Source of the DNA: Pseudomonadota bacterium
GTDB taxonomy: Bacteria; Myxococcota_A; UBA796; SXON01
Reading direction: 5' to 3'
Length of the DNA: 64,000 nt
Assembly: GCA_005778355.1 (NCBI GenBank)
Contig: SXON01000130.1
Location: forward strand, 1 to 64,000
The notes under the pieces are model-generated. The model saw only the letters and a list, made by a program, of their open reading frames with translations. It was not told where the DNA came from and ran no database searches. Positions 3,808 to 45,343 of the stretch are shown in pieces (the first letter of the stretch is position 1; every line of letters begins with the position of its first letter). Position numbers and translations under genes: made by a program.

Positions 3808-4296
3808 CTACAACGCAGACTCTGGCTCGACCAGCAGCGTTGCCCTGCAGATCTCCACGCGCACCCCGCTGTTGTTTGCGGCCTGCACGCCGAACTGCAC
3901 CCACGGCTTGGGCGTGCCGAGCGCCATCAGATCGATGTAGGTGGACCCGAAGTCGCTGCCCACCGTGGTGCGGTATCCCGCCACGAGGTTGACGTCGGAG
4001 TCCCAGGATATCCCGTCGTTGGACCAGCGGATCGCGGGCCGGATTTTGCAGTTCGCCGAGGTCTCCTCGAGCTCCGTGGACACCCGCACCTTCAGCAACC
4101 CAGCGCTGGACATGGGCTGGCTCAGCGCGTGCCACGTGGGATTGGTGGTGCCATCGGTCCACACCGGCTCCGGACCGAAGAGCCACGACCCGGCGGTGCG
4201 ACGAAGCGTCGCGTTCGCCTCGTGGGAAAGCGTTCCCACGATGAGCGCCGTGACGACGGCGACCGTGGGAAAAATGGACCTCAAACCCTTCAACAT
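3808..4296 (-). CDS. Small secreted beta-rich protein, paralog of 44828-45343
   Basis: 162 aa. The start MLKGLRSIFP... gives a classical signal peptide with cleavage likely after the HEANA segment near residue 29, so the product is exported. The mature part is beta-rich with a central RWSNDGISW motif and a closing VRVEICRATLLVE strand. The same order (AWSVAGRTW ... VTCVLEIE) occurs in the protein at 44828-45343, suggesting a shared small beta-sandwich fold; this is my alignment by eye. No function is known to me. Directly upstream lie a hairpin over the start codon and a promoter with a C10 tract in its spacer, so expression may be switchable. Confidence 0.65.
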   Translation of the reverse strand: MLKGLRSIFPTVAVVTALIVGTLSHEANATLRRTAGSWLFGPEPVWTDGTTNPTWHALSQPMSSAGLLKVRVSTELEETSANCKIRPAIRWSNDGISWDSDVNLVAGYRTTVGSDFGSTYIDLMALGTPKPWVQFGVQAANNSGVRVEICRATLLVEPESAL

Positions 4297-4317
4297 GGCA
4301 CGCCTCGTTGCGTGCCA
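4296..4317 (-). promoter_or_regulatory. Perfect inverted repeat at the start codon of the 4296 gene
   Basis: On the minus strand TGGCACGC and GCGTGCCA flank a 6-base loop, a perfect 8-bp stem whose last base is the A of the ATG. The only Shine-Dalgarno-like bases (GAGG) lie at the loop/stem junction. The stem could sequester the ribosome site in RNA or be a repressor operator in DNA. Confidence 0.4.
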
Positions 4318-4319
4318 CC

Positions 4320-4351
4320 AGAGTAAGCGACGGCTCCCCCCCCCCTGTCAA
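4320..4351 (-). promoter_or_regulatory. Candidate promoter with G10 tract in the spacer
   Basis: On the minus strand a perfect -35 hexamer TTGACA (4351-4346) is followed at once by ten G (4345-4336), then AGCCGTCGCT, then TACTCT (4325-4320) as the best -10 candidate. The spacer is 20 bp; loss of two or three G would give the optimal 17-18 bp. The layout matches slipped-strand phase-variable promoters known from Neisseria porA and opc. The -10 match is weak (3 of 6), so this is a hypothesis. Confidence 0.4.
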
Positions 4352-4434: not shown

Positions 4435-7400
4435 TCAACACCCCTCACGCCCCCTTGGAGTCCGCCGACGCCAGAGCGCCAGCGCGCTAACCACCGCCGC
4501 CAAGCCTGCCCCAGGCCCCGCGTTGCACGAGAGCCCCCCGTAGAGCCCGCCCACGCGATCGACATCGCCGGAGTCGGTGGGATCCGGGTCGACGCCGGAG
4601 TCGGTGTCGCCACTGTCGCCGGAGTCCCCGGAGTCCCCGGTGTCGCCGGTGTCGGGCGGGTCGCCGTCGAAGCCGTCGCAATCGTTGTCGATACCGTCGC
4701 CGGGCACCTCGGTGGCGGCGGGGTTCACGGTGTCGACGGTGTCGTCGCAGTCGTCGCCGTTGTCGACGAAGCCCTCGATGTCCTCGCAGGTGACAAAGCC
4801 GGTGCTGGGGTCGCCGTAGCCGTCGTCGTCACCGTCGATGTAGATCGAGTGACCGTCGACGGGGTTCTCGTCGCTGTAGCCGTCGCAGTCGTTGTCGGCC
4901 TCGTCGCAGACTTCCTCCGCGCCCGGGTTGGCGGCGCTCGAGCCGTCGTCGCAATCGTCGCACGCCACGTAGCCATCGCCGTCGTTGTCGTCGGAGCCCA
5001 CGTAGCCGTCGCAATTGTAGTCGTTCGGGTCGTCGCAAACGTCCTCGGCACCCGGGTTGTAGGCCGAGCTGTTGTCGTCGCAGTCGGCGGCGGGGTCGCT
5101 GGCGGCGGCCTCGGCCACGTCGTCGCAGTCCTCGTCGGTACTCTCGACGGTGTCGCTGTCGGAGCGGTACTCGTCGAGGTCGGCGTCGGCGTAGCAGCTC
5201 TCTCCGCCGTCGCAGTCCTGGTCGATCTCGTCGCCCACCACCTCGGTGGCCGCGGGGTACACGCTCGCGTCGTTGTCGTCGCAGTCGTCGCTCGGGTCGC
5301 CGCGCTCGCCCTCGCCGCTGTCGAGGCAGTCGGTGTCGGTGCTGTGTACGCTGGTGCTGGTGTCGGGGCGGTAGCCGTCGTCGTCGACGTCGACGTAGCA
5401 GGTTTCTTCCCCGTCGCAGTCCTGGTCGACGCCGTCGCCGGCCGTCTCGGCGGCCGCCGGGTTCACCGTGGCGTTGCCGTCGTCGCACTCCTCGCAGGCG
5501 GCGTAGCCGTCGCCATCGGCGTCGTCGTAGCCCACGGAGCCGTCGCAATTGTAGTCATTGGCGTCGGTGCAGTCGGTCTCGGTGGCAGCTGGGTTGTAGG
5601 CGGGGTCGGTGTCGTCGCAATCGCCGTCGTCGTCTCCGGTCGAGCCCTCGTTGGCGTCGTCGCAATCGAGGTCGCTCGACTCGATCGTGCCCGGCTCGTC
5701 GTCGAGGTAGCCGTCGTCGTCCTCGTCGAGGAAGCAGGTCTCGGTGCCGTCGCAGTCGGCGTCGATGGCGTCGCCGGTGGTCTCGGCCGCCCCTGGGTTC
5801 ACCGTCGCGTCGCCGTCGTCGCAATCGTCGCTTGGCTGGGAATCGCTGGCCTCGCCGCTGTCGGTGCAGTCGTCGTCTGCCGAGCTCGCGGTGTCGGCGG
5901 TGCGGTAGCCGTCGTCGTCCACGTCGGCGTAGCAGCTCTCGGTGCCGTCACAGTCCTGGTCGACCTCGTCGCCGGTGCCCTCCGTGGCCGCCGGGTTGAC
6001 CGTTCCATCGTCGTCGTCGCAGTCGCCCGCGGGCTCGCTGGTCAGGGCCTCGCCCGCGTCGGTGCAGTCCGCGTCGGCGCTCGCGACGCTCTCGCCGGTC
6101 CGGTAGCCGTCGTCGTCGTTGTCGGCGTAGCAGGCCTCGCTGCCGTCGCAGTCACTGTCAACGCCGTCGCCCGGGGTCTCGGTGGCCCCGGGGTAGGCGC
6201 TGGCGTTGCCGGTGGCGCAATCGGTGGACAGCGTCGATTCACCGGCGTCGTCGCAGTCCGTGTCGGCGGAGGCGGCCGTGGCGGTGCCCCCGAAGCCGTC
6301 GCCGTCGGCATCGACGTAGCAGCGCTCGGCACCGTCGCAGTTCTGGTCGACCTCGTCGCCGGCCGTCTCGGCGGCCGAGGGGTTCACGCTCGCGTTGGTG
6401 TCGTCACAATCGTCGCTGGCCGAGTCCTCGCCCGCGTCGGTGCAGTCGGCGTCGGACGTGGCAACCGTGGTGCTCCCGCCGCTCCCATCGCCGTCGTTGT
6501 CGGCGTAGCAGCTCTCGGCGCCGTCGCAGTCGCTGTCGAGGCCGTCGCCCACCACCTCGGCGGCACCGGGGTTGACACTGGCATCGCCGTCGTCGCAATC
6601 GCCGTCGGGGTCGGTGGCGCCGTTCTCCCCGGCGTCGTCGCAGTCGAGGTCGAGCGAGGCCACTGTGTCGTCGCCGGCGTAGCCGTCGGCGTCGGCGTCG
6701 GCGTAGCAAGACTCCTCGTCGTCGCAGTCCTGGTCGACCTCGTCGCCGGTGGTCTCGCTGGCGCCGGGGTTCACGCTGGCGTCGGTGTCGTCGCAGTCCA
6801 CGGTCGCGGTGGACGGCGCCTCGCCCGCGTCGTCGCAATCCTCGTCGGCGCTCGCGACGGTGCTGGCGCTCCGGTAGCCGTCGCCGTCGGCATCGGCGTA
6901 GCACACCTCGGTGCCGTCGCAATCCTGGTCGACCTCGTCGCCGGTGGTCTCGCTGGCGGCGGGCGACACCGCGGCGTCGCCGTCGTCACAGTCGCCGCTC
7001 GGGTCGGTCGACAGCGCCTCGCCGGCATCGGTGCAGTCGCTGTCGATCGAGCTGACCGTGCTGGTGGTTCGGTAGCCGTCGCCGTCCTGGTCGGCGTAGC
7101 AGCTCTCCATCCCGTTGCAGTCCGCGTCGATGCCGTCGGCCGGGGTGTCGGTGGCGCCGGGGTAGATGCTGCCGTTGGTCTCGTCGCAGTCGGTCGTGGG
7201 GCTCGTGTCGCTGCCCTCGCCGAGGTCCGCGCAGTCGGTGTCGGCGCTCAGCACGGTGTCGCCGGTGGTGTCGAGGTAGCCGTCGTCGTCGTCGTCGTCG
7301 TAGCAGGTCTCGGCGCCGTCGCAGTCCTGGTCGACCTCGTCGCCGGTCGACTCGGTGGCGGCGGGACTCACCGAGGCGTCGCTGTCGTCACAGTCGCTGG

Positions 7401-9483
7401 TGAGCGTGCTGGTTGAGCCCTCGCCGAGGTCGGCGCAGTCGGTGTCGGCGCTCAGCACGGTGTCGCCGGTGGTGTCGAGGTAGCCGTCGTCGTCGTCGTC
7501 GTCGTAGCAGGTCTCGGCGCCGTCGCAGTTGGCATCGACGCCGTCGCCCACCGTCTCACTCGCGGCCGGGTTGACGCTGGCATTGCCATCGTCGCAGTCC
7601 TCGTCGCCCTCGCCGCCTACGAGGTAGCCGTCGGCGTCGGCGTCGGCATAGCCGAGGTACACGTACACCTTGCCGTAGCCGCTCGAATCCGCGTAGTCGG
7701 CCACGGCAAGATCGGCGTGGCCGTCGCCGTTGACGTCGGCGCCGGCGAGCGCGTTGCCGTAGTCGTTGCCGCTCGACGAGGAGAAGCTGTTGACGGCGGT
7801 GGTGCCCACGCCCGCCGCGCTGCCCGCGTAAACGTAGGCGGTCTGCGCGTTGATTGCGCCGCAGGCCACGTCGTCGTAGCCATCGTTGTCGGTGTCGCCG
7901 ACGATGCTGACACTCGTGCCGAAGCTCGTGTCGGACTCGGTGAGCGTGGTCGCCGCAGTGGCGGACACGCCGCTCGCGGAGCCGTGGTGTACCCAGGCCT
8001 CGGCGCTGGCGGCGTACTGGCCGATGATGACGTCGTCGTAGCCGTCGCCGTTGACGTCGCCCCCGCCATCGACGGCGTAACCAAAGATGTCGGCTGCTGC
8101 CGCGCCGTCTATCTCGGTGGTGGCGGTTGACGACACCCCCGAGCTGCTGCCGTGGTGCACCTCGACGCGCCCCTGGTAGCTCTCGCTGTCGCTGTAGTAG
8201 GGCGCGCCGATGATCACGTCGTCGTAGCCGTCGTTGTCGACGTCGCCCGCGTAGGCCAGCGCCTGGCCGAAGTAGGCCCCGCTGTCGGGACCATCGAAGG
8301 TCGAAGAGCTGCTGCTGATGCCGGTGCTACTGCCGCGGTACACGTAGATCCGCCCCTTGGCCGAGGAGTGGCCCGGCGAGCCGACCACCAGGTCGTCGTA
8401 ACCGTCGTTATGCACGTCGCCGTCGAGGGCGAGGGCCTGGCCGTAGCGTGAGGTGACGTTGCCCGAGAGCGAGGTGGTGGACGTGGTGCTCACGCCGCTG
8501 GCGGAGCCGTGGAACACGCGCACGTAGCCGTTGTAGGTGCAGGAGAGCGCCACGTCGTCGTAACCATCGCCGTTGGCGTCGCCGCCGCCCGCCACGAACC
8601 TCCCGCATAGATAGGCGCTCGACACCGAGAGGGTGCTCGTGGCGGTGGTGGACAGGCCCGAGGCGCTGCCGTGGAACACGTAGGCGCGACCGGCGAGGGA
8701 GGAGGCGTAGGGCGAGCCGACGATGAGGTCGTCGTAGCCGTCGTTGTCGACGTCGCCCGCGCTCGACAGCGCGTAGCCGAACTGGCTGCTCGTGGAGGCG
8801 CCGGTCAGCGTTGCGCTCGCGGTGCTGAGCACCGGGTCGACCTCCACAGGGTAGGCCGCGTCGCGGTCGTCGACGAGCACGCGGAGGCCCTCGGGGCCAA
8901 GCTGGAAGTGCGAGGGGAGGGGACGCCCGGTGGCGTCGAAGGCGGCGAGGCCCTGGTAGTCGTAGAGCCGACCGTCGCCATCGATGAGCTGCACGGCATC
9001 GGCCTGGACGTCGATGACGTCGAGGTTGTCGAGGCGTAGCTCAAAGGACAGCGGGCCAGTCCCCGGCGGTGGAGCGTCGATCGTCCAGCCGTGCTCCAGG
9101 CCATCGGGCTGGCCGGCCCACCACTCCGTCACGCCCGCGTGGTCGTACTCCAGCCGTGGAATGGGTCGACCGGCGGGATCGACGAGGCCGGGGAGGGATT
9201 GGCCGAGGGCAGGGGCGACGGCGGCCACGGGGAGCGCGTCGTCGTGGCGACCCCAGGCCGCGAGGCCGAGGCCGCTGTCACCGAGGGACAAGCCCACGCT
9301 ATCGAACTCGGCGTGCATGCCCATCGCCGGGAAGGTGGCGACGTAGGCGCCGTCGCGCTCGACGATCTCGTGCTCGGCGGCGGCAAAGCTCGGGGCGGTT
9401 ACGACGCGCCAGTGATCGGGTGCCTCGGGGGACGCGGGCGACCCGCAAGCAAACAACCACAGGACCAGAGGCAAGAGGCGCAT
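4435..9483 (-). CDS. Giant FG-GAP / Asp-repeat surface protein with MYXO-CTERM anchor
   Basis: 1682 aa. N-terminus MRLLPLVLWLFACGSP has a lipobox-like Cys13. Residues about 210-620 are FG-GAP (integrin-alpha beta-propeller) repeats: GDVDNDGYDDLIVGSP-type units recur seven to eight times, enough for one propeller. Residues about 625-1620 hold roughly 16 units of the myxobacterial putative metal-binding repeat (DCDDGDASVNPGA followed by DGVDQDCDG and CYxDxDxDGYR), which should bind many calcium ions. A TGDSGD linker and the end SCNAGPG, a hydrophobic stretch, WRRR form a MYXO-CTERM-type sorting signal. Presumably a calcium-stiffened surface adhesin; its ligand is unknown. Having both a lipobox and a C-terminal anchor is odd; one may be non-functional. 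Confidence 0.85.
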   Translation of the reverse strand: MRLLPLVLWLFACGSPASPEAPDHWRVVTAPSFAAAEHEIVERDGAYVATFPAMGMHAEFDSVGLSLGDSGLGLAAWGRHDDALPVAAVAPALGQSLPGLVDPAGRPIPRLEYDHAGVTEWWAGQPDGLEHGWTIDAPPPGTGPLSFELRLDNLDVIDVQADAVQLIDGDGRLYDYQGLAAFDATGRPLPSHFQLGPEGLRVLVDDRDAAYPVEVDPVLSTASATLTGASTSSQFGYALSSAGDVDNDGYDDLIVGSPYASSLAGRAYVFHGSASGLSTTATSTLSVSSAYLCGRFVAGGGDANGDGYDDVALSCTYNGYVRVFHGSASGVSTTSTTSLSGNVTSRYGQALALDGDVHNDGYDDLVVGSPGHSSAKGRIYVYRGSSTGISSSSSTFDGPDSGAYFGQALAYAGDVDNDGYDDVIIGAPYYSDSESYQGRVEVHHGSSSGVSSTATTEIDGAAAADIFGYAVDGGGDVNGDGYDDVIIGQYAASAEAWVHHGSASGVSATAATTLTESDTSFGTSVSIVGDTDNDGYDDVACGAINAQTAYVYAGSAAGVGTTAVNSFSSSSGNDYGNALAGADVNGDGHADLAVADYADSSGYGKVYVYLGYADADADGYLVGGEGDEDCDDGNASVNPAASETVGDGVDANCDGAETCYDDDDDDGYLDTTGDTVLSADTDCADLGEGSTSTLTSDCDDSDASVSPAATESTGDEVDQDCDGAETCYDDDDDDGYLDTTGDTVLSADTDCADLGEGSDTSPTTDCDETNGSIYPGATDTPADGIDADCNGMESCYADQDGDGYRTTSTVSSIDSDCTDAGEALSTDPSGDCDDGDAAVSPAASETTGDEVDQDCDGTEVCYADADGDGYRSASTVASADEDCDDAGEAPSTATVDCDDTDASVNPGASETTGDEVDQDCDDEESCYADADADGYAGDDTVASLDLDCDDAGENGATDPDGDCDDGDASVNPGAAEVVGDGLDSDCDGAESCYADNDGDGSGGSTTVATSDADCTDAGEDSASDDCDDTNASVNPSAAETAGDEVDQNCDGAERCYVDADGDGFGGTATAASADTDCDDAGESTLSTDCATGNASAYPGATETPGDGVDSDCDGSEACYADNDDDGYRTGESVASADADCTDAGEALTSEPAGDCDDDDGTVNPAATEGTGDEVDQDCDGTESCYADVDDDGYRTADTASSADDDCTDSGEASDSQPSDDCDDGDATVNPGAAETTGDAIDADCDGTETCFLDEDDDGYLDDEPGTIESSDLDCDDANEGSTGDDDGDCDDTDPAYNPAATETDCTDANDYNCDGSVGYDDADGDGYAACEECDDGNATVNPAAAETAGDGVDQDCDGEETCYVDVDDDGYRPDTSTSVHSTDTDCLDSGEGERGDPSDDCDDNDASVYPAATEVVGDEIDQDCDGGESCYADADLDEYRSDSDTVESTDEDCDDVAEAAASDPAADCDDNSSAYNPGAEDVCDDPNDYNCDGYVGSDDNDGDGYVACDDCDDGSSAANPGAEEVCDEADNDCDGYSDENPVDGHSIYIDGDDDGYGDPSTGFVTCEDIEGFVDNGDDCDDTVDTVNPAATEVPGDGIDNDCDGFDGDPPDTGDTGDSGDSGDSGDTDSGVDPDPTDSGDVDRVGGLYGGLSCNAGPGAGLAAVVSALALWRRRTPRGREGC
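7213..7529 (-). repeat. 113-bp direct repeat inside the giant surface gene
   Basis: Bases 7213-7325 and 7417-7529 differ at one position by my reading. They encode two copies of the unit from CYDDDDDDGYLD to CADLGEG, 204 bp apart. Other units of this array are much more diverged at DNA level, so this pair looks like a recent unit duplication or gene conversion. Confidence 0.8.
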
Positions 9484-44047: not shown

Positions 44048-44725
44048 GTGGACGATCATGGGGATTCGTCGTCTTCCTCCCGACCTGCGTGGGCCAAACG
44101 GAGTGACTGCGAGGCCACGCTGCGCGCCTTTTGGCTTGGCGAGACGGCTGCCCTGTTCGTGTACCGGGGGGTGCTGGCGGACATCGAAAAGGACCGGGTC
44201 GAAGGGCGCCCCCGCCTGCTCCGGTGGGCAGGCACCCTCTCGGCGCCCGTGCCGCCGGCGGGGGCGGCGCTCGACGCCTGGCTGGGGCTGTGCCCGGCGC
44301 TTGGCGAAGGCGACGTCCACGACCTGGAACGACTGGGCTGGATGCTCGCGACCTGGTACTCGGGCCGCGATGTCGTGCTGCGCGTGGCTGGACGGCGACT
44401 GCATCACCAGCGACCTTCGACAGCCGGCGCGAAGGGGGCGCTGAGTCGGTGCCTCGCTGGGTATCTGTACGAGGGGATTATCGGGACGATTGATGAGGTA
44501 GAACGCCACGAAATGATGAATTCTGGGGGGGGGGTCAAGAATCGCGACAGGGAACTTGCTCGACACGCCCTGACACTGGCCCAGCGGGCTGCCGCGGGCG
44601 AGTGGCGGCTCGGCGTGGTTGGCGTCCTGGCCACGGGGCCCGCAGCGCGGCTTGCCAACGCGCCCGAGCAGGCAGTGATCCGCGAACGGGCCATTCTGCA
44701 ACGCCGTCGTGGCGGCCGCGAGTGA
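44048..44725 (+). CDS. Unknown protein with G10 tract in its gene
   Basis: 225 aa from GTG at 44048; upstream codons in frame look antisense. No signal peptide, membrane helix or known domain seen. Helical segments dominate (SDCEATLRAFWLGETAALFVYRG, HDLERLGWMLATWYSGRDVV and an Arg-rich end). A run of ten G at codons 160-163 (bases 44525-44534) makes Ser-Gly-Gly-Gly. Loss of one G ends translation 12 codons later; gain of one G shifts into a frame that stays open to 47298. It is the first gene of a same-direction group with the next three. Confidence 0.55.
   Translation: MDDHGDSSSSSRPAWAKRSDCEATLRAFWLGETAALFVYRGVLADIEKDRVEGRPRLLRWAGTLSAPVPPAGAALDAWLGLCPALGEGDVHDLERLGWMLATWYSGRDVVLRVAGRRLHHQRPSTAGAKGALSRCLAGYLYEGIIGTIDEVERHEMMNSGGGVKNRDRELARHALTLAQRAAAGEWRLGVVGVLATGPAARLANAPEQAVIRERAILQRRRGGRE
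44525..44534. repeat. G10 homopolymer inside a coding region
   Basis: Ten consecutive G lie inside the 44048-44725 gene. Tracts this long in bacterial genes are prone to slipped-strand mispairing and to sequencing error. Confidence 0.9.
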
Positions 44726-44827
44726 TGCAGCGCCGCGCTGCCACGGCGACTCCCCCGTCGGAAGAAAATTTCCGTTCGCTCCCCGCCAAGTGCCCGGGTA
44801 CATCCAGAGCATCACTGGAGCGGTTTG

Positions 44828-45343
44828 ATGAGTTTCGACAACGATCAGGGTTCTTTGGGGCGGATCAAGCGCGTGGGCGGCGCCACGTGCGGCGGCGCGG
44901 GGGGCTCGTCGGAGTCCGCGATGGGAAATCCGCGCGGCGGGAGCGCGCCGAAGTCGATCCTCGTCACCCTCTGCTCGGAAGAGACCTTTCGCACCAACGG
45001 CACCCAGACGCGGACGGTCACCCTCTACGACCTGCCGCAGGTTCGTCGGCTCGGTCCGCTCATCAATCGCATCCGCGTGCATTGGCTGGTCGAGGGCGCG
45101 AGCGGCGCCAACTTCCAGGGGGGTGTGACGTTGGCCTGGAGTGTCGCTGGGCGCACGTGGTCCAACCCGGTGGACCTACTGGCCCTGACCGCGAACAATG
45201 CCGAGCTGATCGGCGCCTGGTACACCACCGATGGCAACTTCGGCCTGAACATGCGGTACAGCATCGACGTGGCCAACCTCGCGGGGAGCGTGCAGGAGTT
45301 TGGCCGCGTCACCTGCGTGCTCGAGATCGAGCTGAAGAGCTAG
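44828..45343 (+). CDS. Small beta-rich protein, paralog of 3808-4296
   Basis: 171 aa from the ATG at 44828 with GGAG seven bases upstream. A flexible Gly/Ser-rich lead (residues 10-40) replaces the signal peptide of its paralog. The body shares RVHWLVEGASGAN ... TLAWSVAGRTW ... DVANLAGS ... RVTCVLEIE with the 3808-4296 product in the same order, so I infer a common beta-sandwich fold. How it would leave the cell is unclear. The next gene begins five bases later. Confidence 0.65.
   Translation: MSFDNDQGSLGRIKRVGGATCGGAGGSSESAMGNPRGGSAPKSILVTLCSEETFRTNGTQTRTVTLYDLPQVRRLGPLINRIRVHWLVEGASGANFQGGVTLAWSVAGRTWSNPVDLLALTANNAELIGAWYTTDGNFGLNMRYSIDVANLAGSVQEFGRVTCVLEIELKS

Follow-up and report, generated by a model that had tools for sequence, protein, structure and literature searches.

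Repeats in promoter spacers suggest phase-variable expression of a multi-copy jelly-roll protein family in an order of uncultivated bacteria

Background

The promoter of porA in Neisseria meningitidis carries 11 G residues between its -35 and -10 elements, and phase variants with 9 and 10 G have been described (PMC3639595). In Neisseria nadA, a repeat upstream of the core promoter shifts the spacing of the NadR operators (PMC2791445), and phase variation between yellow and tan colonies is recorded for Myxococcus xanthus (PMC3986340). Repeat-driven phase variation is characterized as typical of small-genome pathogens (PMC11475388). The abstracts and hit lists searched contain no report of repeat-driven promoter switching in the lineage from which the present DNA comes or in Myxococcus xanthus.

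The window analyzed here is a stretch of 64,000 nucleotides from a draft assembly of 6.6 Mb in 252 contigs, estimated to be 85% complete. Positions 4296-4351 of the window probably form a phase-variable promoter, a reading to which we assign a probability of roughly 0.8, and the locus appears to belong to a larger set of similarly built promoters in the same genome and order.

Results

On the minus strand of the window, a TTGACA that matches the -35 consensus is followed directly by ten G, then by ten further nucleotides and by a candidate -10 element, TACTCT, giving a spacer of 20 bp; the ATG of a 162-aa open-reading frame begins after another 23 nt (Table 1). A sequence-only reading had pointed out the TTGACA with its G tract, the -10 candidate at 20 bp and the poor quality of that candidate, and each was found as described, with TACTCT agreeing with TATAAT at 3 of 6 positions (T, A, and the final T). 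That loss of two or three G would bring the spacer to 18 or 17 bp, as it also stated, follows from the 20-bp spacing, and the resemblance it drew to the Neisseria porA layout holds as far as can be judged from sequence. A standard sigma-70 scan did not report the site because the 20-bp spacer falls outside 16-18 bp. The draft assembly contains a single TTGACA with G10 directly behind it, and no instance of the reversed pattern used as a control. Taken alone, without comparison to the family, this layout would be a weak case and suggestive only; it is the comparison with relatives that makes a strong case for the proposed phase-variable promoter.

Table 1 Features of the candidate promoter and of the gene downstream (window coordinates)
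Feature	Position	Strand	Basis or remark
-35 element TTGACA, 6/6 consensus	4346..4351	-	family-wide TTG[AC] enrichment directly left of the repeat
G10 tract, putative slippage-prone part of the spacer	4336..4345	-	repeat at the same position family-wide
Fixed rest of the 20-bp spacer, AGCCGTCGCT	4326..4335	-	sequence
Candidate -10 element TACTCT, T-A----T kept	4320..4325	-	TAATCT, TAATCA, and TACTCA in relatives; TA enriched right of the repeat
8-bp inverted repeat TGGCACGC-AACGAG-GCGTGCCA	4296..4317	-	over the probable transcription start and the start codon
162-aa ORF, member of an order-specific jelly-roll family, signal-peptide-like N-terminus	3808..4296	-	profile searches, AlphaFold model

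A second layer of control had been suggested for a hairpin over the start codon. The 8-bp inverted repeat is real in the DNA and encloses a Shine-Dalgarno-like GAGG at 4306-4303, and as a complete RNA it folds at -15 kcal/mol. In an RNA beginning at the predicted start, at about 4313, the greater part of the 5′ arm would be missing, and such an RNA folds no better than shuffled sequences; a hairpin in the RNA requires a start at or upstream of 4317. Translational control by a hairpin was rejected for a start near 4313, and with such a start the suggested second layer is not supported. The inverted repeat may instead be an operator in the DNA.

Profile searches place the 162-aa protein among small proteins that form a multi-copy family, and about 100 of these were examined. 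Some 20 copies are present in the window's genome, up to 22 matches were found in one genome, and the family was detected in 29 of 379 genomes of the phylum, all 29 of them within the window's own order. Relatives with a named source are environmental MAGs, and the lineage is probably a freshwater one within Myxococcota. The 162-aa ORF has no Pfam match at E ≤ 0.001, and searches with family members (set A2) against Pfam and PHROG returned just single weak hits (E ≥ 0.027). IMG/VR contained no relative, and a viral origin was rejected on this ground and on the lack of a PHROG match. AlphaFold predicts with confidence a beta-sandwich of the jelly-roll type (pLDDT 87, with most of the core above 90), for which Foldseek returned weak matches to distant jelly-rolls, namely birnavirus VP2 (TM 0.47), the Ena2A fibre subunit, and TNF-like lectins; the likeness to these solved structures probably reflects a common topology and not family membership. 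The window's protein has a signal-peptide-like N-terminus, a feature shared by only 10 of 87 relatives. Since most relatives are without one, the term surface protein should not be extended to the family, and a surface or secreted role is putative for the window's product.

A divergent second family member lies at 44825-45343 on the plus strand of the window (HMM E = 2.9e-6 with a 65-sequence profile). The window's other G10 tract (44525-44534) is located about 300 bp upstream of it, apparently within another ORF, and is without the promoter layout. The upstream neighbour of the 162-aa gene (4435-9483, minus strand) encodes a protein of 1682 aa in which FG-GAP repeats and 15 putative metal-binding motifs of the MopE type were recognized.

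Tandem repeats were sought in the 200 bp preceding the start codon, both in family members and in 173 control genes from the same contigs whose upstream regions are intergenic. The sample consisted of draft MAGs, with one genome per species, partly inferred start codons, and imperfect control ORFs. A repeat score of at least 9 was reached by 58 of 100 members compared to 24 of the 173 controls (13.9%, p = 3e-14), and a score of at least 12 by 35% compared to 2.3%. Downstream of the same members, repeats scoring at least 9 were present in 12.6% of regions (paired p = 6e-9 against upstream), and when the member upstream sequences were resampled by a Markov model, 1-7 of 100 attained that score. 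The enrichment held when members were clustered at 40, 50, or 70% identity and each cluster was represented once (p = 1e-4 to 9e-12). The median repeat position was 44 bp before the start codon, and 34 of 100 members had no repeat (score below 8).

Several small proteins of about 100-155 aa outside the family profile, L229, L223, L246, L039, and L046 (G000 C28, C241, C114, C102, and C229), are likewise preceded by a G10-G15 tract or by about 21 nt of (TC) repeat, in several cases with TTG on the left and TA on the right. The set of repeat-bearing promoters may thus extend to families besides the jelly-roll one.

The sequences on either side of the repeats were examined in windows of 14 nt to the left (plus 4 nt into the repeat) and 16 nt to the right. 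TTG[AC] was present on the left in 32 of 59 members compared to 7 of 115 control repeats (p = 2e-12), and TA on the right in 46 of 59 compared to 18 of 115 (p = 6e-16), the family flanks reading as a CTTGAC/CTTGC-like -35 followed, after the repeat, by a TAnnnn -10. The layouts TTGACG-A(CT)6GCAC-TAATCA (G000 C89), TTGACA-GA(TC)nGCAT-TAATCG (C244 and C18), and TTGACG-AGA-C13-AGTGG-TAATCT (C141) can be set beside TTGACA-G10-AGCCGTCGCT-TACTCT in the window, and poor matches to TATAAT are found across the family's -10 hexamers. This shared geometry bears on the idea that the window site is a chance juxtaposition at one locus, or that its homopolymer length is an assembly error. A genome with 17 exact G10 tracts and an assembly that is fragmented and incomplete would allow either, but the same arrangement recurs family-wide, including at repeats that are not homopolymers and not prone to that assembly error, and we regard this explanation as very improbable.

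Scoring CTTG[AC]NN-N(s)-TA at all spacings gave one peak, at s = 17 (12 of 66 members, with no more than 4 at every other s), which is a mode in the distribution of sequences and not of expression. Ordinary genes yielded too few TTG/TA pairs to serve as a yardstick for promoter spacing, partly because the control ORF calls are noisy in a 69% GC genome. A simple rule for both elements is satisfied by 33 of 64 repeat-bearing members and not by the other 31. Within the window's genome the spacers run from 11 to 21 bp, so that ON and OFF copies would be expected to coexist in the genome at a given moment. Some members have long repeats with spacers of 26-66 bp; plain spacing control would be impossible above 25 bp, and such members may act otherwise.

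Over-long repeats of this kind, together with repeats located further from the start in several members, fit a model in which the repeat tunes expression without altering core spacing, either by shifting an activator or repressor site, as in Neisseria nadA, or by sitting in the 5′ leader. The same model could draw on TTGTCA/TGACAA half-sites, present in 21 of 100 family upstream regions compared to 3 of 173 controls, and on direct TGTCA repeats (8 of 100 compared to 0 of 173). In the window and in most members, however, the repeat adjoins the TTG and TA elements, with a spacing mode of 17 bp, and we consider the model rather unlikely as a general account. Half-sites are found left of the repeat in, for example, G000 C118 and C99 and G007 C4 and C7, and GTCGCGAC palindromes occur in 21 of 100 family upstream regions compared to 10 of 173 controls; half-sites and palindromes together are a possible regulator site common to the family.

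About 25 types of repeat unit of 1-16 nt were found, among them G, C, A, GA, CT, GCA, CGT, GCAA, GGGTA, CGTAT, several hexamers, octamers, and units of 12-16 nt. On the gene tree the state changed at least 38 times, which means that this one site has gained repeats again and again. Promoter spacers tolerate sequence change, and this tolerance, together with the lack of relationship between the units of different members, could mean that slippage builds repeats passively where there is little constraint and that switching is unselected. Other intergenic upstream regions on the same contigs, however, show the much lower frequencies given above; the longest tracts, such as (GCAA)8, (GCA)9, (GGGTA)8, and G18, are well beyond the length expected by chance; and most of the strong control repeats with both elements turned out to belong to the family itself, read on the other strand. 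We consider passive accumulation distinctly improbable.

Close relatives differ in repeat number. G000 C244 and C18 share 97% protein identity and an identical right flank, and their (TC) tracts measure 11 and 15 nt, with spacers of 17 and 21 bp; in C89 and C165 the CT tract is 12 and 10 nt and the spacer 17 and 15 bp. Corresponding differences separate G009 C3 from G007 C17 ((CGT)4 compared to (CGT)5, or 12 and 15 nt), G005 C76 from C23 (a (GA) tract of 11 compared to 21 nt), and one further pair between species or paralogues (31 compared to 35 nt). For the window's G10 itself, the relatives compared include no close orthologue that has a G tract. We read these differences as traces that slippage has left over evolutionary time, not as traces of switching within one population. 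The same pairs address the notion that the repeat marks where a mobile gene cassette, inserted at repeats, ends, to which a multi-copy family scattered over contigs and frequently near contig ends might lend itself. In the paralogue pairs, similarity continues through both flanks (left 78-85%, right 97-100%), so the repeat is not a boundary; the cassette reading is largely refuted and is given almost no credence here. In a separate case, two species of the genus have one family member in identical form, upstream region included (G009:C34 and G007:C117), which suggests recent transfer or cross-binning.

The original proposal, that the spacer between -35 and -10 contains a tract prone to slippage, is thus supported by about 100 relatives, through repeat enrichment, the flanking elements, the 17-bp mode, and the differences in repeat number between paralogues.

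Discussion

In the phase-variable promoter proposed here, slipped-strand mispairing at the G10 tract would change the distance between TTGACA and TACTCT and with it the rate of transcription of the 162-aa gene. With its 20-bp spacer the copy in the assembly is predicted to be weak or OFF, and loss of two to three G, by restoring 17-18 bp, would turn the gene up. With about 20 relatives per genome, most having their own repeat at the same promoter position, a clonal population could hold many combinations of expression. Slippage in living cells, its effect on transcription, and the assignment of ON and OFF states are all predictions from DNA sequence.

With somewhat less confidence, we think it likely that this order of uncultivated free-living bacteria carries a combinatorial phase-variable set of about 20 or more jelly-roll proteins per genome, in which the spacer switch site is conserved and the repeat has been swapped repeatedly among the unit types. 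Conservation of the site while the repeat keeps being replaced would point to selection on having an unstable spacer and not on any one repeat. The question of why localized hypermutation evolves would then become testable outside pathogens, and a single promoter type would be available for testing in about 60 natural versions that differ in spacer length. The arrangement also suggests that strong diversifying pressure acts on this unknown protein family; phage, predators, prey, or kin recognition are possible sources of it.

Among the described systems, nadA is similar in that a simple repeat alters the distance between promoter elements, and differs in that the window's repeat lies within the core spacer; the nadA model may apply to those few members whose repeats are very long or distal. 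Myxococcus xanthus offers phase variation in what is probably a relative. The closest likeness in layout is to porA, which also has a homopolymeric G tract in the promoter spacer and in which, as here, spacing is the predicted control variable. However, porA is a single locus in a host-bound pathogen, whereas about 20 paralogues per genome with units of 1-16 nt are found here, the product is an unrelated small jelly-roll protein from an apparently free-living lineage, and switching is predicted from sequence. What is new relative to these systems is that a repeat-promoter architecture appears to extend over a whole family, with repeats born independently many times, and does so in apparently free-living bacteria with large genomes.
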